NCBI GenBank assembly: GCA_002793035.1
Contig: PFPL01000041.1
Location: 1 to 33,852, forward strand
DNA length: 33,852 bases
Direction of reading: 5' to 3'
Origin: Candidatus Magasanikbacteria bacterium CG_4_10_14_0_2_um_filter_33_14
Lineage (GTDB): Bacteria > Patescibacteriota > Patescibacteriia > Magasanikbacterales > UBA922
The position numbers and the translations under genes were made by a program. Shown here piece after piece: positions 7,099-24,981 of the stretch (the stretch's first letter is position 1; every line of letters begins with the position of its first letter). Below the pieces are notes generated by a model, which worked only from the letters and a program-made list of their open reading frames with translations, was not told where the DNA came from and did not search any database.

Positions 7099-9840
7099 TT
7101 ACACACTTTTTCTTACTCTATTGATAGCAAGACCAGCACCAGCTACAGCAGCTAGAGCACCACTACCAAAGAGAATCTTGATCCAAGTTGGTAAATTTTG
7201 GTCTCCATTTTCTGGAGTAGAACTTACTGTTTCTTCTGGAGTGTTGTTATTTTCAGTATTTTCTTCAGTTGTGTTTTGTTCTTCACCAGAGTTTGGTTCA
7301 GTTGTATTATTCTCTGTATTTGTAGAACCATTGTTAGTATTGGTTTCAGTATTTGTAGTACCAGTACTTCCTGTTTCTTCTACTGGTGTTGTTGAAGTAG
7401 TGTTTTCTGGAGTTATACCAGTTTCAGTATTTGTATTTTCTGAAGTGTTACCATTATTTTCAGGAGTACTTGGAGTACTACTGCCTTTTACCACATGCAC
7501 TATTACCTCAGCACTGTTTTCTTCACCATAAGAATCTTTTACTTTTGTTGTAAGAGTGTAAATACCCACCTCAGTATAAGTATGAGTAGTAGTTGGTTCT
7601 GTATAATAAACTTCATCACTACCATCTCCAAAATTCCAGAAATAAAATACAATATTATTTTCAGCATCACTACTACCACTCGCATCAAATGTAATTTCTT
7701 TATTTACTTCGATAGTCACTTCTTGACCTGTAGTCAAACCAGCTTGAGGAGCTGTGTTTGATAATAGTGTTGAACCACCACCTGATGAAGTATTTGTAGG
7801 AGGATTTGTTGTATCATCAGGAGTTGTAGAAGAATCATTATCATCAATATTTAAAACAAAAGTATCAGCGTCAGAATTGACATAAGCAGTATTTTCTCCT
7901 TGAACAAGAAATAAACTTATAGATTCTAGTGATTCAATATCTGAGTCATCGTTAATTGTAATATCAAAAGAAGTAGTTGCACTATTGATAGGTATCTCAA
8001 CCACATACAATTTAGCAAATTCTGAATTAGAAATATCTGCTGAAATAGCATAGTCTACATCTTCAGTAGCTGTACTAGTCTCATTTACTTGAAAATAAGC
8101 AATAACAGTACTATTTCCAATTTCACCTTCAGGAGCGCCAGCACCGCTGTCTTTAGCAGGCTTTAAACTGTGTAAATTTACAGTATATGTCCCATCATCT
8201 TCATTAACCTCAACAGAAGACATGTCAAAACTTACTTCATTACCAATTATACTTACCACAAAAGTGTCTTCAAACACACCACCATTGCCATCATCAACTG
8301 TTACAATAACTTCTACGTTAGTTACGTTATCATTTGTAGATAAGATTACAAGATCTCCATTATCCATCATTGTAATAATATTAGCAGGGTCTGAACTGGT
8401 AGCCGTAAAAGTCAAACTATCACCATCTACATCTGTAAAGTAAGAAGCCAAAGTAGTAGATGAGATCATGCCACCATAACCCATAACTACTTTCATATCT
8501 GGGATACCTTCTCCAATAGAAGTAGGCGCACTATTAGTTGTTCCACCGGCTGATTCATCATCATTTAAGATAGTTAAAGTATGCACAGAATTATTTGAAT
8601 CTGCCTCAAAATTAGTCTCACTTGAAAATGCAGATGCTACAAAATCAACTGTTTCATCAGTCTCAACCGTTATATCACCATTTATAATAAAATCAAAATC
8701 CACATAATCAGTACCAGATGTCATTGTAACTATAAATCTATTTGTTACGTCAGTAGCTTGAGTATAATCATCAGTTGATGTAGCTGTACTTGTATCAAGA
8801 ATTTTCACCCAAATACTTCTATCTTCTGTTTGAACTTGATCAGCAACTAAACGGATGGTAGTAGTAGATGTTCCTTCATTTCCTTCTGTAACAGAACTTG
8901 TAGCGGTTTCAAATCCAAAATTGCTAATTGCAGTTACAGTATCATTATCTTGAATAATAGTAGTATGAGAGATATCTGCAAAGTCATAAATTTTCCCTTC
9001 ACTATCAGTAGCGTATGTCAATGTGATAATGACGGTTTCCTCTTCTTCTACGTCGGTATCATCTATTGGTTGAAACAAAAACCTTCTTTTTTCATTAGCA
9101 CCAACATTTTTGATTATACCAGTACCATTATCTAATTCTACGCTATTTTCTATATAAGTTATTTCACTACCTACAATCTGACTAGTGGTACTAACCACAT
9201 AATCAGTAATAGAAGCGTTACCACTAATTTCAAAATGAAAGTCCAAAGTATTACTGTCATTGTTTGTAAAAGAAGCTGTACCACCTCCAAAATTACCTGC
9301 GTTTTCGGTGAATATAGCGCTGCCAGAAGTAAATACAGGAGCAACAATATCATTATCATTAATAATAAAATTTATAGCACCACGAGAACTAAAACCTTCT
9401 ACAGGAGTTCTATTCTCATCATCATAACTAGCTGATTCAAATGTCAAACCAAAAGATTCTGGGTTTTCGTGTTGTATATCATCAATAATATTTATCGGGA
9501 AAGTTACAGATCCACTTGCCGGAACACTTATCACATTTGTGCCAGCATCACCAAAAGGAGAACCTTCACCAACATACAATTCATAATCACCGGTACCATC
9601 TGTACTTCGCACAGCATCACCTGACATTGTAAATGTTAGATTGATAGGAGTAGAAGATGTATTTTGAATTGTTACTAAAGAGATAGGATTAGTATCACCC
9701 TCAGTCAAAGTGGTAGTGTTTACAGATATACCAATTATTTCTGACGGCATAGCATGCACAAACGCTACACCAAAACTATTGAATAAAAGAGCTGAAACTA
9801 GAAAAAAATGACCTAATTTAGCGAAAAAACGTTTTTTCAT
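7099..9840 (-). CDS. Secreted Calx-beta/cadherin-like/PKD surface protein with C-terminal membrane anchor
   Basis: The 913-residue protein begins with a signal peptide (basic MKKRFFAK, hydrophobic core to about residue 30, cleavage near VHA). Repeated Calx-beta-like domains follow (about 35-140, 150-295, 300-425 and 540-670), recognised by TEGD/TVNED openings and NDND-type acidic ends. A cadherin-like segment (about 436-535: ASYFTDVDGDSLTFTATSSD) precedes the last Calx-beta repeat, and a PKD domain follows at about 700-785 (FDASGSSD...FWNFGDGS...TYTEVGIYTLTTKVKD). Then comes a Thr/Asn/Glu-rich stalk (about 785-875). A final transmembrane helix (about 886-906) has a basic RVRKSV tail. It is probably displayed on the cell surface for adhesion or cell contact, with Ca2+ stabilising the beta domains. 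The anchor starts NLPTWIK, not a standard LPXTG. Confidence 0.88.
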   Translation of the reverse strand: MKKRFFAKLGHFFLVSALLFNSFGVAFVHAMPSEIIGISVNTTTLTEGDTNPISLVTIQNTSSTPINLTFTMSGDAVRSTDGTGDYELYVGEGSPFGDAGTNVISVPASGSVTFPINIIDDIQHENPESFGLTFESASYDDENRTPVEGFSSRGAINFIINDNDIVAPVFTSGSAIFTENAGNFGGGTASFTNNDSNTLDFHFEISGNASITDYVVSTTSQIVGSEITYIENSVELDNGTGIIKNVGANEKRRFLFQPIDDTDVEEEETVIITLTYATDSEGKIYDFADISHTTIIQDNDTVTAISNFGFETATSSVTEGNEGTSTTTIRLVADQVQTEDRSIWVKILDTSTATSTDDYTQATDVTNRFIVTMTSGTDYVDFDFIINGDITVETDETVDFVASAFSSETNFEADSNNSVHTLTILNDDESAGGTTNSAPTSIGEGIPDMKVVMGYGGMISSTTLASYFTDVDGDSLTFTATSSDPANIITMMDNGDLVILSTNDNVTNVEVIVTVDDGNGGVFEDTFVVSIIGNEVSFDMSSVEVNEDDGTYTVNLHSLKPAKDSGAGAPEGEIGNSTVIAYFQVNETSTATEDVDYAISADISNSEFAKLYVVEIPINSATTSFDITINDDSDIESLESISLFLVQGENTAYVNSDADTFVLNIDDNDSSTTPDDTTNPPTNTSSGGGSTLLSNTAPQAGLTTGQEVTIEVNKEITFDASGSSDAENNIVFYFWNFGDGSDEVYYTEPTTTHTYTEVGIYTLTTKVKDSYGEENSAEVIVHVVKGSSTPSTPENNGNTSENTNTETGITPENTTSTTPVEETGSTGTTNTETNTNNGSTNTENNTTEPNSGEEQNTTEENTENNNTPEETVSSTPENGDQNLPTWIKILFGSGALAAVAGAGLAINRVRKSV

Positions 9841-16319: not shown

Positions 16320-17615
16320 CTACGCGAAAATAGTCTCACTTCTGTCTGGTCCAAAAGACGCAATAGAAACTTTGCAACCTGCCTGTTCTTCTAGAAATTT
16401 CAAATATTTTTGCATAGTTTCTGGCAAACTTTTGAAACCTTCTTTTTTTATTCTCTCTTTTTCTTCTGGGCTAAAATCTTCCCAACCAGGAAAACTAGTA
16501 TAAACAGGTTTGGCTTTGCGCATGGCTTCTAGACTTGCAGGCATCTCAGTCACCATCTTACCATCGATACTATAAGCTACACAGACTTTTATTTCTTCCA
16601 TTCCAGCCAAAACATCGAGCTTAGTTACCGCCATTTCTGTCAGCCCACTAGTACGTACAGTCTGTCTGACTTGTACCAAATCTAGCCAACCAATACGACG
16701 AGGACGACCTGTTGTGGTACCATATTCAAAACCTTTTTCACGAATGAAATCTCCAGTTTCGTCCAATAATTCTGTGGTAAAAGGACTGTTTCCCACCCGA
16801 CTAACATAAGCTTTGACAATACCCAGAATTCTTTTTTCACAATTTAGTCCTACACCAGCACCAACTTCACAATAGCCCGCGACATTGTTGGAACTAGTAG
16901 TGTGAGGATACATACCATGATCTGGGTCCAGTGACATGCCTTGAGCACCTTCAAACAAAATATTTTGTCCAAATTTGTAAGCCATTGCCAATTCTAATTC
17001 TGTGTCGTAAATATATTCTTTTAATTTTTTGCCATATTCCAAATATTCTGCATAAATATCTTCTTTTGGAGTTGAAAATTCAAAATCAAAAACTTTTTGC
17101 AACATATCAACATTGAACTTGTAAGCTTTGTCCAATTTTTCTTTTAAAATTTCTGGTTCCAACAAATCTCCAATGCGAATTCCATGACGATAAGCTTTGT
17201 CTGCGTAAACTGGGGCGATACCACGCTTGGTACTGCCAGCACCCAGACTTCCTTGATGACCAGAAAGTGCTTCGTCCATAGCAATGTGATATGGCATGAT
17301 GACATGAGCACGCTGACTAACAAGCAACTTTGGTTTTGGATTGTCCACAATAAAATTATTTAATTCTTCAAGCAAAACTTTTGGGTCTACAACTACACCA
17401 TTACCAATGATAGAGGTAACGTGTGGAGAAACTACACCAGAAGGAAGTAAATGAAGTTTGTAAACTTTGTCACCAACTACGACAGTATGACCAGCATTGT
17501 TGCCACCATGAAAACGTACCACATAATCCATATTCTGTGCCAAAAAATCTGTTAATTTTCCTTTCCCCTCATCCCCCCATTGTGCTCCTACTATTACGGT
17601 GATTTGTTTGTTCAT
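16320..17615 (-). CDS. purA: Adenylosuccinate synthetase
   Basis: PurA makes adenylosuccinate from IMP and aspartate using GTP. The 431-residue protein begins with the signature QWGDEGKGK (12-20), where Asp15 is the expected catalytic residue. It continues with RFHGGNNAGHTV, the GSTKRGIAPVYADK loop, the GTTTGRPRRIGW motif and the TKLDVL base-binding segment. Length matches bacterial PurA. It lies 27 bases downstream of the 1531-residue protein and 17 bases upstream of purB, so all three are likely cotranscribed. The start is preceded by A/T-rich sequence without Shine-Dalgarno. Confidence 0.96.
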   Translation of the reverse strand: MNKQITVIVGAQWGDEGKGKLTDFLAQNMDYVVRFHGGNNAGHTVVVGDKVYKLHLLPSGVVSPHVTSIIGNGVVVDPKVLLEELNNFIVDNPKPKLLVSQRAHVIMPYHIAMDEALSGHQGSLGAGSTKRGIAPVYADKAYRHGIRIGDLLEPEILKEKLDKAYKFNVDMLQKVFDFEFSTPKEDIYAEYLEYGKKLKEYIYDTELELAMAYKFGQNILFEGAQGMSLDPDHGMYPHTTSSNNVAGYCEVGAGVGLNCEKRILGIVKAYVSRVGNSPFTTELLDETGDFIREKGFEYGTTTGRPRRIGWLDLVQVRQTVRTSGLTEMAVTKLDVLAGMEEIKVCVAYSIDGKMVTEMPASLEAMRKAKPVYTSFPGWEDFSPEEKERIKKEGFKSLPETMQKYLKFLEEQAGCKVSIASFGPDRSETIFA

Positions 17616-17642: not shown

Positions 17643-20600
17643 TTAAGATTTATACTGTAGTGCTTCAAACAATCCTTTAAATCCGGCTTTATAAGCCATC
17701 CCTTGTAATACACTTATATTTTTCAAAAGTAAAGTAAAATTTAGAGGAACCTGAATACCAGAGCTCTTAATCGCAACCAACTCTCTTTGGGCTGTAAGTG
17801 AATCTTGAGACTCTAATGCCTTTACAAAACTCTCGACATTTTTCTTAACTTTTTGTAAATTTTTAATTGATACGTCATGACCATCTGTAAGGTATTGCAA
17901 AAATTTTTCAGATCTCTGTTCCAAACCCGCGCCTTTGGAAATAAGTGACATAAACAAAATTTTCTCTTCATTACTAATATCCAAATAAAAATTTCTGTCA
18001 TACACGACTAATTTTTTATCTGAAGTAATTGAAAAATTTCCAGGATGTACATCTGAATGCATCTGCCCATTTTGCATTTGTGTCAAATAAAATCTAATGA
18101 AAATCGCAACAACGTCTTTCATATCATGTCCTTCTTCTTTAAGTTTTTCCCATTCTGTTAAGTTTGTACCACTTGCTTTTTCTTCCATTACAAAATATTT
18201 ATTTTCTGGTCCGTAAGAAGCTGGAACATACACTTCATAAGCAGAACCAAAAGATTGTCCATCATAAGTTTCTTTGAACTTTTTATCTTTTTCTAAAAAA
18301 TCTACGAACCACATGTCTGCCTCTATCCACTTTTTTATATCATCCAAAAGTAATTGAGCCGCTGTATATTTTTCTCTATTTTTTGGTAGAAGTAATTTTA
18401 TAATTGATGAAATGTATGAATGCATTTCTGATAAATGATAATTCAAATTTGGATTTCTTACTTTTAAGACCCTCTTTGAACCATCTTTCATAGCAACTTC
18501 AAAAACAGAGACAATGGAACCCCCTCCAATTCTATTCTCAACTTTTTCTACTGATTCCCACATATCTGGCCATTCTCTTTCTAATAATTTAATTGCCGCT
18601 ATTTTTGTTTGACCCTCCACTCTATCAAAAATTTCTGAAAATTCAACCAATTTTTCTTTTGGAACTTCTGTAATAAGAGGAAGTTGTTGCAAAAATCTAA
18701 CACCCAAGGCTCCCATACGAGAACCAAGATCTTTTACCATTTGAAAAGGAGCTACACGTTTTTGTTCAACTGTATTTACAAAAATTCCTTGTTTCAATAA
18801 AGACTCTCTGATCTTTGACATTTCCTCATTTATTATATACTCTGAATACCTCCAATATTCTTTTCTTTGGGAGCTGCTCAAAGATAAAGTTTTAATTCTC
18901 TTATCAAACTCCGCAGGCTCTTCAAAGTGTAGTTCTATTCCCAGATGGTCACTATTATCCTTTGACTGTTCTGCACTTTTAAGATCCTCGTCAACATCAT
19001 ATATATCCTCCAATTTTGTACTTTCTTTAGGTGGTAGTCCAATATAATCAGATAATATAGCTTGTAAAGACATATAGGTATATTCCCAATCACTATATTT
19101 GGCAATAGCATCACTTATCTGACCTATGACTTCAGAAACTTGCTTTTCCCAAGCAGATCCCTCTTTACCTTCTGGTTTCTCTAAGAAATCTTCTTGTAAC
19201 ATGCCCATCAATTTTTTTCGTCCAGAAAGTTTCAATATAAGACCACCACGACCTACCAATATTTTTCTGAGCAAAGCTGTTCTTGAAAGATTACCAGAAT
19301 TATAAATAGCTCTTCTCAAAGCTTTGGCTTTTTCTATTACACCAACAACATCGTAGATATTTTTTTCACCATCACCAAGTGAAGGTTGAAAAAAATCATA
19401 AATATTTTTGGACAATTCTTCATCTGAAAACCTTGCCGATAGTAATGACCTCAAAAAAGCAAGACTATCTCTAAACTGTAAAGTTGTTGTCTCTAAAAGG
19501 GCAATTGCACCAAGCTTAACAGATCCTTCTTCTACTTCTTGTGTCATTTTATCTTCTAACACTACCATTACCTGTTCATATTCTTCTTTTGTCTGAACAT
19601 CTTCTTCTAGAAATTTTTTCAAGAAATCAAAAGAAACTGAGATACCACTCTCTGTATTTGAAAAACACAATTCAAACTTTTCTGAAAAACTTACTTGTTC
19701 CCATTTATACTCAAGACTTTTTTGAACAGCAGATACTAAACTTTGGTCAAAAACTAAATTTGAAACTTTAAGAGCATCTTTTAAAGATAAGCTACTAAGA
19801 CCCTCAGATTCGATAACTTTTCTTACAGCAATAGCCAGGTTTGGACAAATATTTATATTTTGTTTTAACAGAACAAATAGTTCACCACACTCATTCTTCA
19901 AATTTTCCAAATTAGCAAAAATTTTAGATATATCTTTTTCATGAAAATATCCATCAAGTAACCTTACAAAAAAATGAGTAAGATGTCCCTCAGAAGTAAG
20001 TCTGCTAATACCATGAGGATTTTCTTTGGATACAAAATATTTATAAGCTAACACTATTTTTTCTTCAGTCACCCCACCAACAAAAAGCTTATCAATATCA
20101 AACCAATCTCTTATCGTCTTATCCATCTCTTTTAGTCTTTCCTTATAATCAATCATCGATAAACCTATTATATGTTCAGTTTCAGACTCTTCCAATCTAT
20201 CAGAATCTTCATTATAAGACATCTTATCCTTATTTTTTCTATAAGTGTCCAAACTTCTTTTTGCATTAAAAGAATTTAAAATCTGATGAAGACCAACACC
20301 ATTCCTATGAGCCATTAATTTCTCAATTAACAAATACTCATCTTCTGTAAACATTTTTTTTGCTCCAAATAATGTGATTTCTACCTGCAAGTAATCCATG
20401 TAAGCCATTCGCGCTAATTCTAAATTAGCAGAATAGGCAAACCTATCTGCGTCTACGTTCTTTATAGTTTGTATTCTAGCAGCAAACTCCTTATCATTCT
20501 TCATTTTAAAGAAAAAATAATCTCTAATGTTATCTACAGTCTTTGCATATTCTGCAAAAGTAGCCTCTGAGCAGTTATCCCAAATTTCTTGATACAAATC

Positions 20601-22238
20601 ACTCAGTTTGTATTTTTTATTTAAATCATACAATCTGTCACCAACCTCTATTTCAAAACTACTAAAATTGCTTTCCGTTTTTTCAGCAAGAAAACTTTCG
20701 TCCTCTCTCTCTGTATTTTCTGTCTTTGTTTTTCTTAATAAATTCTTGGACTTTTCATCTTCAAAAGACCCGTACCAAAGATCATAAGCCAATATCTTTA
20801 GTCTCCCCAACGATAAAGTCTTGCTATTACCAAATTTATCAGCAACCTTACCTAGAGAAACCACCCATTCCTCAATAAAAGAATCCAAACTTGAGGTGTC
20901 TCCTTTTTTTATATCATCTTCAAATAATTTTCCTTTCACAGCCTGTCGACAAATGTCACTCCAAAATCCATAAATACTACCCTGACTTAAAACATATTCA
21001 AAAGGTGTTCCTACTTCCAAAATATTTTCTAAACTTTTTTTTAAATCAACAAAGTCTTCTTTTGTTTTCATTTCTAAAAACAAATCAATACCAAATTTGT
21101 TTAAGAATGCTTTTTTTTCTTGTATATCTACAGAATAAACCATACCAAGTCCTTTCCCTATACTAAGCTCTGAAGAAAAAACGTTGACACCACAAAATAA
21201 ATTCAATAATAATAATTCTCTTTGTGAATAATCTTTTGCCTTTAGGACATCCATACTTTCTAAGTCTTCTCTACCCAATAATGAAACAAACTTTTCTAAT
21301 AATTTCTTTAACAATTCGACATCTAATTTTGATTTTTTATCACATTTTATATGAGAAAACAAAGTATCAATGGCAAATTGAATCTGATTCAATGTTATAT
21401 TTTCTACCGCATCAAGTTTTCTTTTATGTCTTGCTTGCAATTCATCTTCTTTAAGAATATAAGCTGGTTTTAACGCCAAGTCTACGTTTCCTTCACTCAT
21501 TTCCCTCTCCATATCAGACAAAGCTTCTTTATCAAGAGTTACAGGGTCATTCAAATCAGCAAGTGATTGAAAATCTACCAAATACGTGGCTGTATTAATA
21601 TTTAAAGCTCTATCCATACTTCCTCCATGTTCTGCACCTATTCTATCTCCTCTCTGATCTCTAGCCAATCTCGTCATAACACTTTTTAAACCTAACGGAG
21701 AAACTCCTATACTATCTAATACTTTGTAAACACCCTCTAAATCAGCTTGTAGTTCTTTTGCTCTACCAGAACCCACTTTTTTCAAAGCACTCTTTGCAAA
21801 GTCTGTTAAAGAACCTTCAAACTTTCCATCTTTTTTACTCTTAATGTGTTCTCGATAAGCGTGTACATATTCATGTGCTAATATGCCCAATAGCTCTTCT
21901 TCAGTTTCTAAATACTTCAAAAGCCCAGAAGAAATCATAATAGTACCGTCTGGAAAACACATAGCATTTTTGTCAGGCATATGTGTCAAAACACAAATAT
22001 CTTTAATAGGAAAACCTTTTTGCTCCGGCAATTTAGCAACTAAATCTTGCAAATATTTACTCATTTTATTTTCCGAACTCAATTCTCCATATCTAAAATG
22101 CATGTATTCCTTTGATTGTTCTATTGCACGATTAAAAGAAGGATCTTCTTCTTCAATTTTTTCCTCTTTTTCAGTATCTTTACTAGGAAGTGCCTCCATG
22201 GCAAATCTCCTTCTGGCATATTCTTCTGAAGAACTCAT
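17643..22238 (-). CDS. Giant protein: N-terminal M48-type metallopeptidase domain and C-terminal ABC1/UbiB-like kinase domain
   Basis: The 1531 residues contain two recognisable ends. At 60-210 lies a peptidase core with HEYVH (122-126) and a second zinc motif ELQAD (162-166), as in M48. At about 1175-1450 lies an ABC1/UbiB-like kinase: candidate lysine K1259 in VLKVRNP, HSDVHPGN (1394-1401) with catalytic D1396, and D1414 in VVYDRN. Departures from UbiB are clear. The Ala-rich AAASIGQ loop is GGGSIVS (1238-1244), KxGQ is replaced by RFLQ (1181-1184), and the DFG glycine is lost. The 900 residues between are helical, acidic and unrecognised. There is no signal peptide or membrane helix, so it is probably cytosolic. 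It heads the purA-purB transcript. Confidence 0.85.
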   Translation of the reverse strand: MSSSEEYARRRFAMEALPSKDTEKEEKIEEEDPSFNRAIEQSKEYMHFRYGELSSENKMSKYLQDLVAKLPEQKGFPIKDICVLTHMPDKNAMCFPDGTIMISSGLLKYLETEEELLGILAHEYVHAYREHIKSKKDGKFEGSLTDFAKSALKKVGSGRAKELQADLEGVYKVLDSIGVSPLGLKSVMTRLARDQRGDRIGAEHGGSMDRALNINTATYLVDFQSLADLNDPVTLDKEALSDMEREMSEGNVDLALKPAYILKEDELQARHKRKLDAVENITLNQIQFAIDTLFSHIKCDKKSKLDVELLKKLLEKFVSLLGREDLESMDVLKAKDYSQRELLLLNLFCGVNVFSSELSIGKGLGMVYSVDIQEKKAFLNKFGIDLFLEMKTKEDFVDLKKSLENILEVGTPFEYVLSQGSIYGFWSDICRQAVKGKLFEDDIKKGDTSSLDSFIEEWVVSLGKVADKFGNSKTLSLGRLKILAYDLWYGSFEDEKSKNLLRKTKTENTEREDESFLAEKTESNFSSFEIEVGDRLYDLNKKYKLSDLYQEIWDNCSEATFAEYAKTVDNIRDYFFFKMKNDKEFAARIQTIKNVDADRFAYSANLELARMAYMDYLQVEITLFGAKKMFTEDEYLLIEKLMAHRNGVGLHQILNSFNAKRSLDTYRKNKDKMSYNEDSDRLEESETEHIIGLSMIDYKERLKEMDKTIRDWFDIDKLFVGGVTEEKIVLAYKYFVSKENPHGISRLTSEGHLTHFFVRLLDGYFHEKDISKIFANLENLKNECGELFVLLKQNINICPNLAIAVRKVIESEGLSSLSLKDALKVSNLVFDQSLVSAVQKSLEYKWEQVSFSEKFELCFSNTESGISVSFDFLKKFLEEDVQTKEEYEQVMVVLEDKMTQEVEEGSVKLGAIALLETTTLQFRDSLAFLRSLLSARFSDEELSKNIYDFFQPSLGDGEKNIYDVVGVIEKAKALRRAIYNSGNLSRTALLRKILVGRGGLILKLSGRKKLMGMLQEDFLEKPEGKEGSAWEKQVSEVIGQISDAIAKYSDWEYTYMSLQAILSDYIGLPPKESTKLEDIYDVDEDLKSAEQSKDNSDHLGIELHFEEPAEFDKRIKTLSLSSSQRKEYWRYSEYIINEEMSKIRESLLKQGIFVNTVEQKRVAPFQMVKDLGSRMGALGVRFLQQLPLITEVPKEKLVEFSEIFDRVEGQTKIAAIKLLEREWPDMWESVEKVENRIGGGSIVSVFEVAMKDGSKRVLKVRNPNLNYHLSEMHSYISSIIKLLLPKNREKYTAAQLLLDDIKKWIEADMWFVDFLEKDKKFKETYDGQSFGSAYEVYVPASYGPENKYFVMEEKASGTNLTEWEKLKEEGHDMKDVVAIFIRFYLTQMQNGQMHSDVHPGNFSITSDKKLVVYDRNFYLDISNEEKILFMSLISKGAGLEQRSEKFLQYLTDGHDVSIKNLQKVKKNVESFVKALESQDSLTAQRELVAIKSSGIQVPLNFTLLLKNISVLQGMAYKAGFKGLFEALQYKS

Positions 22239-22264: not shown

Positions 22265-22293
22265 ATTATAGCAAATCATAAGCTATTATGTAA
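22265..22293 (-). promoter_or_regulatory. Possible promoter for the M48-kinase/purA/purB operon
   Basis: An extended -10, TGC TATAAT (TATAAT at 22265-22270), lies about 27 bases upstream of the start at 22238. The -35 region (22288-22293, TTACAT) is poor and overlaps the end of guaB. The call rests on the -10 alone. Confidence 0.45.
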
Positions 22294-23719
22294 TCGCAGT
22301 CACATCATGTACACCACTTTCCTGTAATCCTGCTCCACTTATTCTCACAAACTCAACATTTTTTTGTAATTCAGCAATAGTGTGTGAATTAGTATAACTC
22401 ATACCAGATTTTAGACCTCCAACCATCTGATGAATAATACTTCCCACATCACCTTTGAATGGAACGATTGATTCTACACCTTCTGGCACTACCTCACTCA
22501 TGTTTTTCTTTTTTTCTTGATTTATTTTTCTTCTATCATTGGCTTGAGTGAAGCTAGCACTACCACGAGAAATTTTGAATTTTTTGTCTCCCTTGTTCAT
22601 AATTACTCCTGGACTTTCTTCGGTACCAGCGAGCATACTACCAAGCATAATACTATCTGCTCCAGCACCAAGAGCTTTGACCATGTCCCCAGATTTTTTG
22701 ATTCCACCATCAGCAATAACGGGCACACCATATCTCTTAGCGACATTGGCAGCTTCCATCACAGCAGTAAGCTGAGGCATCCCACAACCTGTCACAATAC
22801 GTGTAATACAAATAGATCCTGGACCAACACCTACTTTGACAGCATCTACTCCTGCTTCACAAAGCTCCTCTGCCGCTCGAGCTGTAGCAATGTTACCAGC
22901 AATTAAATCTACTTCTGGTACCACTTCACGAAGTTTGGCGACAGCATTGAACATAAGATCTGAGTGACCGTGTGCGATGTCTATAACTAATACATCTACT
23001 CCAGCTTTGACAAGTTCTTGAGCTCTTTCCAAATAATCTCCATGAACTCCCACACAAGCACCAACAATGAGACGTCCCTCACTATCACGATTGGACAAAG
23101 GATAATTTATAATATGTTTGATATCATCACTAGTAATAAGTCCTACAATATGATTTTCATCATCTACCAATGGCAACTTTTCAACTTTGAATTCAGCAAA
23201 AATTTTCTTAGCTTCTTCAAAAGTTGTGTAAGCATTACCAACTATTAGTTTTTCTCTTGGTGTCATTATTTCTTCAACTCTTTGATTCATGTCAGTAGCG
23301 AAAAGAAAATCACGACGAGAAAGTACACCACGCAATTTGTTGTCTCCATTTGCCACCAACAATCCTGATACGCCAGTTTCAGATGCGAATTCTTTGGCTT
23401 GTGATACAGTACTTGTTGGGTCAACAGTATAAGGATCACTAACAATCAGATTCTGAGCACGTTTCACTCTTTTTACCTCTTCCACATTTTCTTCAATGCT
23501 ATTGAAACGATGCAAAATTCCAATACCTCCCAAACGTGCCATAGCAATTGCCATATCAGATCCAGTCACTGAGTCCATATTGGCAGAAACTATCGGAACA
23601 TTTAGATTGATATGACGAGAAAGCCTAGTCTTGGTTGTTGCTTCATCACGAGATGAAAAACTAGAACGACGAGGAACAATCAAAACATCATCGTAAGTAA
23701 GGGCTAATGGTATATGCAT
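22286..23719 (-). CDS. guaB: Inosine-5'-monophosphate dehydrogenase
   Basis: GuaB oxidises IMP to XMP with NAD+, the committed step to GMP. The 477-residue protein has the N-terminal barrel start ([25 protein letters not shown] at 44-53). A CBS pair lies at about 93-205. The barrel then resumes with DIAHGHS and the catalytic loop [13 protein letters not shown] (299-311), with nucleophile Cys304. IADGGIK and the flap segment before VPEGVE follow. Length is typical, and both CBS modules are retained. It is upstream of the M48-kinase/purA/purB genes, placing both branches from IMP side by side. A promoter and terminator unit lies 170-290 bases upstream of its start. Confidence 0.97.
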
Positions 23720-24060: not shown

Positions 24061-24981
24061 TTACCTTTCAAAATGATGAAGATACTTTTTAATAAAATCT
24101 GCAGCATCCAATTTTTGATCTTTACCTATACCTTCTAATTTACTACGCACAAGAGCATTCCAAACAGAATTTCTATTCATGTTTTCTTGTTCTGAAATAT
24201 CTTTAATCATAGTATCAAGCTTTGCCACTTGATCATTATAAAGTTGTGATTGATGATACTTTATAAAATGTTTAATAATTTTTTTATTTTTTATAAAGTT
24301 AGTATCCTCCTGCAAATAATCTAAAAAAAGTTTTCTAGCAAGAGCTTCATTTATAGCCTCATCAAAATCTTCAAAAATTTTAGATTTTTCAACCATAAAA
24401 CTTTGTCCAGAGTTATCTCTTGTTCTAGAATCTTTTATTTTTAATACACTAAATGAATAACCAGAGGTAACCACACCTTCAGGGGGCCCTCCATCTTTTG
24501 TAGAAACACTCAATACATTGTTAGATATAGCATGCACTTCTTCATGAATGATAGCATGTAAAACAAAAAGTCTTTCTAAATCTTCAAAATCTTCTTGACT
24601 TTCTAAATCTTCAAAATCCAAGGGGGTATCCTCTCCAAAAATGCTCCTAAGTCTACTGTACATTAATCGAACATTTTCATTAGATATGTCAGCACCATTC
24701 AAAAATATAATATTTTTAAAAATGTCATATTGCGCTGGACCCATTTCTTTTCTAAGAGATTCTGGTACTCCATCTATAGAATCTATACTTAAAAAATTAA
24801 TGTTTTCTCCTTTTAAACCAGAACGATCTGTAATTTTTTCAAACAAAGACTTCAATAAATCAAACTCTATATCACTCAAAATAAGCTTAGTTTCTGGACT
24901 AAGCTCTTGTCTGTTTTTTTCTAAATCCTCAATTGATAGACCGCCCTCCTCTCTAAAAGCAAAATTTTTTCGTGGTGACAT
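24061..24981 (-). CDS. Predicted zinc metalloprotease (zincin), family not recognised
   Basis: The 306-residue soluble protein has HEEVH at 146-150 inside a hydrophobic helix (LFVLHAIIHEEVHAISNN), the HExxH zinc motif. A second helix about 60 residues on (FEDFDEAINEALARKL) carries Glu208 and Glu212, plausible third ligands for a gluzincin. The N-terminal 120 residues are helical and acidic. It has no signal peptide or membrane segment. It starts 9 bases after the gatB stop, so the two are cotranscribed. The M48-like domain of the 1531-residue protein is the second HExxH protein nearby, but the two share no obvious similarity beyond the motif. Its substrate is unknown. Confidence 0.7.
   Translation of the reverse strand: MSPRKNFAFREEGGLSIEDLEKNRQELSPETKLILSDIEFDLLKSLFEKITDRSGLKGENINFLSIDSIDGVPESLRKEMGPAQYDIFKNIIFLNGADISNENVRLMYSRLRSIFGEDTPLDFEDLESQEDFEDLERLFVLHAIIHEEVHAISNNVLSVSTKDGGPPEGVVTSGYSFSVLKIKDSRTRDNSGQSFMVEKSKIFEDFDEAINEALARKLFLDYLQEDTNFIKNKKIIKHFIKYHQSQLYNDQVAKLDTMIKDISEQENMNRNSVWNALVRSKLEGIGKDQKLDAADFIKKYLHHFER

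Follow-up and report, generated by a model that had tools for sequence, protein, structure and literature searches.

Contig PFPL01000041.1 of Candidatus Magasanikbacteria bacterium CG_4_10_14_0_2_um_filter_33_14 (assembly GCA_002793035.1) was analyzed over its positions 1 to 33,852, a stretch of 33,852 nucleotides referred to below as the window. Here, we describe a gene in this window that joins an M48 metallopeptidase domain to a UbiB/COQ8-fold kinase-like domain across a long helical region, together with its relatives in other genomes. The gene lies on the minus strand (17643 to 22238) and reads from ATG to stop as one unbroken open reading frame (ORF) of 1531 amino acids (aa), and the plus-strand translation over the same positions is full of stops. 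Pfam placed Peptidase_M48 at residues 60 to 133 (E value, 3.5e-11) and ABC1 at residues 1219 to 1434 (E value, 1.3e-18), both above gathering score, with zero matches between them. The two-domain architecture, read by a preliminary description from the letters of the window, is near certain. The source genome (1.10 Mb, 71 contigs, 97% complete) belongs to a tiny, probably host-dependent bacterium; the fusion is its only ABC1 protein, and a separate M48 protein (310 aa) is encoded elsewhere.

The M48 domain (residues ~41 to 235; 21534 to 22118, minus strand) was recovered by Pfam, AlphaFold2 (AF2) modeling, Foldseek, and profile search against PDB. Models were made as two halves (residues 1 to 700 and 701 to 1531) from alignments of 12 to 13 relatives. 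The predicted local distance difference test (pLDDT) score of the N half was mostly 60 to 93 over residues ~40 to 330, and mostly 58 to 93, with a single low loop, over the M48 domain. Foldseek matched the M48 part to BepA and to Geobacter Q74D82 (3c37), both at probability 1.00 (target template-modeling score [TMt] to 3c37, 0.60), and the profile search returned 3c37 (E value, 1.2e-17), so the earlier reading of the HExxH segment as an M48 fold stands. The predicted zinc and catalytic residues (H122, E123, H126, E162, and D166) are all in place in the window protein. They lie in HEYVH (residues 122 to 126; 21861 to 21875, minus strand), whose H, E, and H are invariant in 12 aligned N halves of the window protein's own type (type I, defined below), and in ELQAD (residues 162 to 166; 21741 to 21755, minus strand), the ExxxD motif of the third zinc ligand, whose E162 and D166 are invariant in 12 sequences. 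The counterpart of the M48 HPxxxxR motif is HGGSMDR (residues 204 to 210; 21609 to 21629, minus strand), with H204 and R210 invariant; type I has HG at this position, and types II and III have HP. Nearly all complete family members retain HExxH, ExxxD, and H[GP]xxxxR, the exceptions being G451, in which E..[AGS]D was not found, and G590, in which H[GP]..R was not found. The window protein shares with BepA (M48 plus tetratricopeptide repeats) and 3c37 the M48 fold and its HExxH, ExxxD, and H..R motifs, and with BepA also a helical region after the protease, but it differs from both in having no visible signal peptide, the type I HG for HP, ~900 added helical residues, and a kinase-like domain.

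That second domain (residues ~1156 to 1531; 17646 to 18773, minus strand) was identified by Pfam ABC1, AF2, and Foldseek. The last ~370 residues of the C-half model were mostly at pLDDT 80 to 94; structures of COQ8A were its best Foldseek matches (5i35; E value, 1.7e-10; TMt, 0.69), mycobacterial ABC1 proteins ranked next, and the profile search of PDB returned Rv3197 (5yjz; E value, 2.4e-6). In common with COQ8A/ADCK3 and UbiB/AarF (PF03109), the window protein has the UbiB-type kinase-like fold and the K, HxD, N, and D motifs. By motif alignment, its full catalytic set comprises K1259, the beta3 Lys in RVLKV (residues 1256 to 1260; 18459 to 18473, minus strand), D1396 and N1401 in the catalytic loop HSDVHPGN (residues 1394 to 1401; 18036 to 18059, minus strand), and the metal-binding D1414 in VVYDRN, the DFG counterpart (17991 to 18008, minus strand). 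It differs from COQ8A and UbiB in its fusion to a protease, in having no transmembrane anchor, and in three motifs. KxGQ is replaced by RFLQ (residues 1181 to 1184; 18687 to 18698, minus strand), with R, L, and Q invariant in alignments A2 and A4 and RxLQ found across all type I; the Ala-rich (AAAS) loop is replaced by GGGS (residues 1238 to 1241; 18516 to 18527, minus strand), invariant in all type I members; and the ExD motif of the N-lobe insert is not kept, its first position being acidic (D/E) and its second Asp absent in the alignment. Both replacements had been remarked upon for the window protein and extend through the type I subfamily. Types II and III mostly retain KxGQ (KxxQ variants), a SAS-like loop, the beta3 Lys, HADxHxGN, and the DFG Asp. 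Over the kinase catalytic region, profiles also show a weak resemblance to the class III lanthipeptide synthetase LanKC, likewise a large multidomain enzyme, but no cyclase or lyase domain was matched in the window protein; precursor peptide genes were not searched for.

These replacements bear on what the domain does. In COQ8A, access to the substrate pocket is blocked by KxGQ and ExD, and A339G, aided by KxGQ removal, permits autophosphorylation (PMC4718504; also PMC7263595), and the kinase activity of UbiB proteins is inhibited by KxGQ and the Ala-rich loop (PMC4718504). The Ala-to-Gly argument of the preliminary description is thereby grounded in the literature, and a true protein kinase that phosphorylates a substrate bound to the helical scaffold, for the M48 domain to cleave once so marked, could be imagined from a window protein with every catalytic residue, a GGGS loop invariant in its subfamily, and no KxGQ. 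We consider this unlikely: among type I members, L083 and L084 have Arg and L088 has Ala for the beta3 Lys, while L086 and L089 have Asn for the HxD Asp; types II and III mostly keep KxGQ and the SAS-like loop, so easy phosphotransfer would not be family-wide; and trans-phosphorylation is without demonstration for UbiB proteins (PMC7263595). The suggestion of a "more conventional kinase" consequently fits the window protein but not the whole subfamily. N1401 and D1414 are never lost in readable type I sequences. Because the beta3 Lys or the HxD Asp is lost in some members, nucleotide binding may outweigh phosphotransfer, and, judging by these residues, selection across type I seems to have put Mg-nucleotide binding ahead of phosphotransfer.

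Between the two domains lies a middle region (residues ~236 to 1155; 18774 to 21533, minus strand) that AF2 predicts to be all-helical and that gave nothing against Pfam, PHROGs, and NCBIfam apart from M48/ABC1-type matches, in agreement with the earlier account of ~900 helical, unrecognized residues. In a viral fold library, only phage and giant-virus M48 domains came up, with no match at E < 0.001. Residues 236 to 950 are the most variable and residues 951 to 1155 moderately conserved; pairwise identity is ~0.14 to 0.18 over the first 700 residues of this link, whereas M48 reaches 0.26 and the kinase-like domain 0.31. Residues ~800 to 1070 of the C-half model are all-helical at moderate confidence.

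ABC1 proteins were searched for in the order (86 genomes), class (381 genomes), and phylum (380 genomes), where the lengths of their ORFs form distinct classes: ordinary proteins reach ~670 aa, and giants span ~1,270 to 2,470 aa. The M48 and UbiB-like pair is encoded at no fewer than 24 additional loci, as fused or adjacent genes, with fused forms of 1.46 to 2.47 thousand aa and one longer Elusimicrobia ORF (at least 3512 aa). Type I consists of single proteins (1458 to 1602 aa) from Uhrbacteria, Kerfeldbacteria, Daviesbacteria, Levybacteria, and one more Patescibacteria genome with two diverged copies (G381; L087, 7887 to 12374, and L135, 5379 to 10085). Other type I copies lie within the Elusimicrobia ORF, in a Micrarchaeota contig, where the copy is broken by an assembly gap, and in Saganbacteria (L089), where the copy ends at the contig end and the kinase half alone is visible. 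The architecture, which the preliminary description proposed to seek in genomes of the candidate phyla radiation, is thus present in many Patescibacteria and also in Elusimicrobia and Micrarchaeota. The Micrarchaeota contig also encodes an archaeal-type alanyl-tRNA synthetase, which makes a binning error unlikely there; the Elusimicrobia and Saganbacteria assignments of these metagenome-assembled genomes rest on the record title. The Elusimicrobia ORF (L090; 5319 to 15854, plus strand) runs off its contig and has M48 at ~930 to 985 and ABC1 at 2090 to 2297, with ~930 additional residues ahead of M48 and 1200 after ABC1, the latter with a hydrophobic segment.

Type II consists of adjacent co-oriented genes, an M48 protein (922 to 1013 aa) first and an ABC1 protein (1415 to 1529 aa) second, in six genomes, with a seventh cut by its contig. 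Type III consists of longer single proteins (1796 to 2466 aa), the longest equaling a type II pair in total length, and seven longer fused proteins beyond type I carry the M48 and ABC1 pair. Every giant ABC1 protein with an intact N terminus has, or directly follows, an M48 domain or, in G451, an HExxH..HP..R region too diverged for Pfam M48; G590 is built the same way, but Pfam does not recognize its diverged kinase domain. The preliminary description had held that finding the halves as separate genes in relatives would speak against the fusion; separate genes do occur, but being adjacent and co-oriented in type II, they strengthen the functional link. One further giant gene (G001; L022, 3905 to 11009) appears as two overlapping frames (751 and 1639 aa) that break at a run of nine G; the break may be an assembly indel, a real frameshift, or a true split, and G001 was left out of the two-gene counts.

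In a tree of the kinase domain, the giants stand apart from ordinary Patescibacteria UbiB (support, 100/100), and type I forms a clade (support, 92/87). Across 25 loci, pairwise M48 distances correlate with kinase-domain distances (r = 0.87; Mantel P = 0.0001), as they do inside type I (r = 0.58; P = 0.0003). The two domains have therefore shared their descent, whether fusing or splitting along the way. This joint inheritance constitutes a Rosetta-stone signal, drawn from sequence comparison, that the M48 and UbiB-like domains would act together. A source genome in 71 fragments invites the question whether an error of sequencing, assembly, or annotation spliced two unrelated genes together, but independent genomes carry the two-domain frame at more than 20 loci, so that neither assembly accident nor chance explains it, and the flanks of the gene match empty sites in the same genus cleanly. 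The relatives refute such an error, and its probability is negligible.

In the window, the 4.6-kb fusion gene lies exactly between guaB (IMP dehydrogenase; 22286 to 23719, minus strand), upstream, and purA (16320 to 17615, minus strand), downstream, which are joined directly in same-genus genomes (78 bp and ~230 bp apart in G039 and G038). At a second, unrelated locus, the type I gene of a Kerfeldbacteria genome (G126; L084) lies between a DUF218-like gene and rpmE-prfA, which are contiguous, with the gene absent, in a genome of the same family (G264). The fusion gene is absent from 4/4 sampled congeners, and its neighbors, mostly housekeeping genes, are not conserved between loci; the purine context is therefore incidental, and the proposed linkage to purA/purB did not hold, same-genus genomes having guaB-purA without the fusion gene. 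Sequence searches found no close homologues in 46 family genomes, phage records, or viral contigs, and plasmid records held only ordinary AarF proteins; nothing therefore points to carriage by a phage or plasmid. The fusion gene is a sporadic single gene, apparently acquired laterally; the opposite polarity, loss in relatives, is less likely because the distribution has wide gaps.

A lone gene inserted at two unrelated loci, sporadic across phyla and in both bacteria and archaea, with a variable middle region and, in one copy, a type IIG restriction enzyme nearby, would suit an anti-phage or anti-plasmid conflict system in which the helical region senses an invader, the nucleotide state shifts, and the protease cuts a host or invader protein. 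We nevertheless think this rather improbable, since PADLOC gave no match for family proteins beyond weak kinase-generic ones, and 123 neighboring proteins were mostly housekeeping, with no visible defense-island signal (no background control was run). The enzyme in question, a type IIG-like (Eco57I) restriction-methylase (L082, 12621 to 15554), adjoins a Uhrbacteria type I copy and is the clearest defense gene noted beside any type I copy.

Two other genes of the window were noted. A 306-aa protein with HEEVH (VLHAIIHEEVHAISN), a possible second zincin with no Pfam family, is encoded directly upstream of guaB (24061 to 24981, minus strand); L145 shows no gene of this type in the guaB-gatB interval, where L146 carries a gene of 161 aa. 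A 913-aa surface-protein-like ORF (7099 to 9840, minus strand) has repeats that are Calx-beta/PKD-like by eye and a C-terminal hydrophobic anchor, and two related ORFs occupy the corresponding place in L147, from the same genus.

The fold also raises a UbiB-type role in lipid or isoprenoid handling, in which M48 would turn over a protein bound to lipid. Among known biological settings, the plant plastoglobule comes closest, and its core proteins include ABC1 kinases (ABC1K) and the M48 peptidase PGM48 (PMC3635846, PMC12587418); an M48 peptidase and ABC1 kinases there share one compartment, but as separate proteins on plastid lipid droplets, with no evidence of fusion or of common descent of the pairing. 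Such a role is very unlikely for the window protein. UbiA prenyltransferase was not found in the source genome, versus 14/14 control genomes with it, and no transmembrane segment was detected (highest 19-residue Kyte-Doolittle mean, 1.61), in line with the lack of a membrane segment and of signs of ubiquinone synthesis in the preliminary description; no such segment was found in type I Patescibacteria proteins either. The window protein has also lost two elements that matter for how UbiB works, KxGQ and the Ala-rich loop, and congeners do without the gene. The score against the UbiB equivalog TIGR01982 was 56 bits, versus a cutoff of 487.55. The protein is a member of the PF03109 and PF01435 superfamilies, yet should not be filed as UbiB, because KxGQ, the Ala-rich loop, ExD, an equivalog-level score, and a quinone context were each looked for and found wanting. 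The fusion gene is accessory, laterally moving, and outside purine or quinone synthesis.

Sequence and predicted structure establish the folds, the domain order, the key residues, the pairing, and the distribution. Because protease and nucleotide sites are conserved, a membrane anchor is missing, the link is variable, and the pairing is consistent, we tentatively propose, with the balance still a little short of even, a soluble M48 zinc protease gated by the UbiB/COQ8-fold nucleotide-binding domain across a long alpha-helical scaffold. The UbiB-like domain at the far end of the scaffold would gate the protease, with nucleotide binding switching it on or off; hydrolysis or autophosphorylation may accompany binding where the catalytic residues are complete, as they are in the window protein. 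The fast-evolving helical middle would capture a substrate, presumably cytosolic, or a partner. Several points weigh against this gated protease: the halves were modeled separately, so that the models show no contact between protease and kinase-like domain; the N-half model is poor past residue ~490, and residues ~490 to 760 are predicted poorly; no result points to a substrate or trigger; and the relation could be the reverse, with the protease freeing or removing the kinase-like domain.

UbiB/COQ8 proteins are ancient and widespread, and the purpose of their ATP use is an open question. The M48-ABC1 giants are an undescribed family; no description of an M48-ABC1 fusion or of such a Patescibacteria giant was found in the open-access literature, and direct coupling of the M48 and UbiB families may, with some reserve, be new. 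It is possible, though we hold it loosely, that they represent an undescribed class of laterally mobile, cytosolic, nucleotide-gated M48 proteases in ultra-small bacteria and archaea, with a UbiB-type switch freed of its inhibitory elements in one branch. A protease fused to or encoded beside a UbiB-type domain would offer proteolysis as a direct readout for that domain, and the type I branch provides natural versions of two changes that unleash COQ8A in vitro. With this family, the accessory pool of Patescibacteria and of one or more DPANN archaea gains a large gene that moves laterally, in organisms whose genomes of ~1 Mb rarely afford genes of 4.6 to 7.5 kb.

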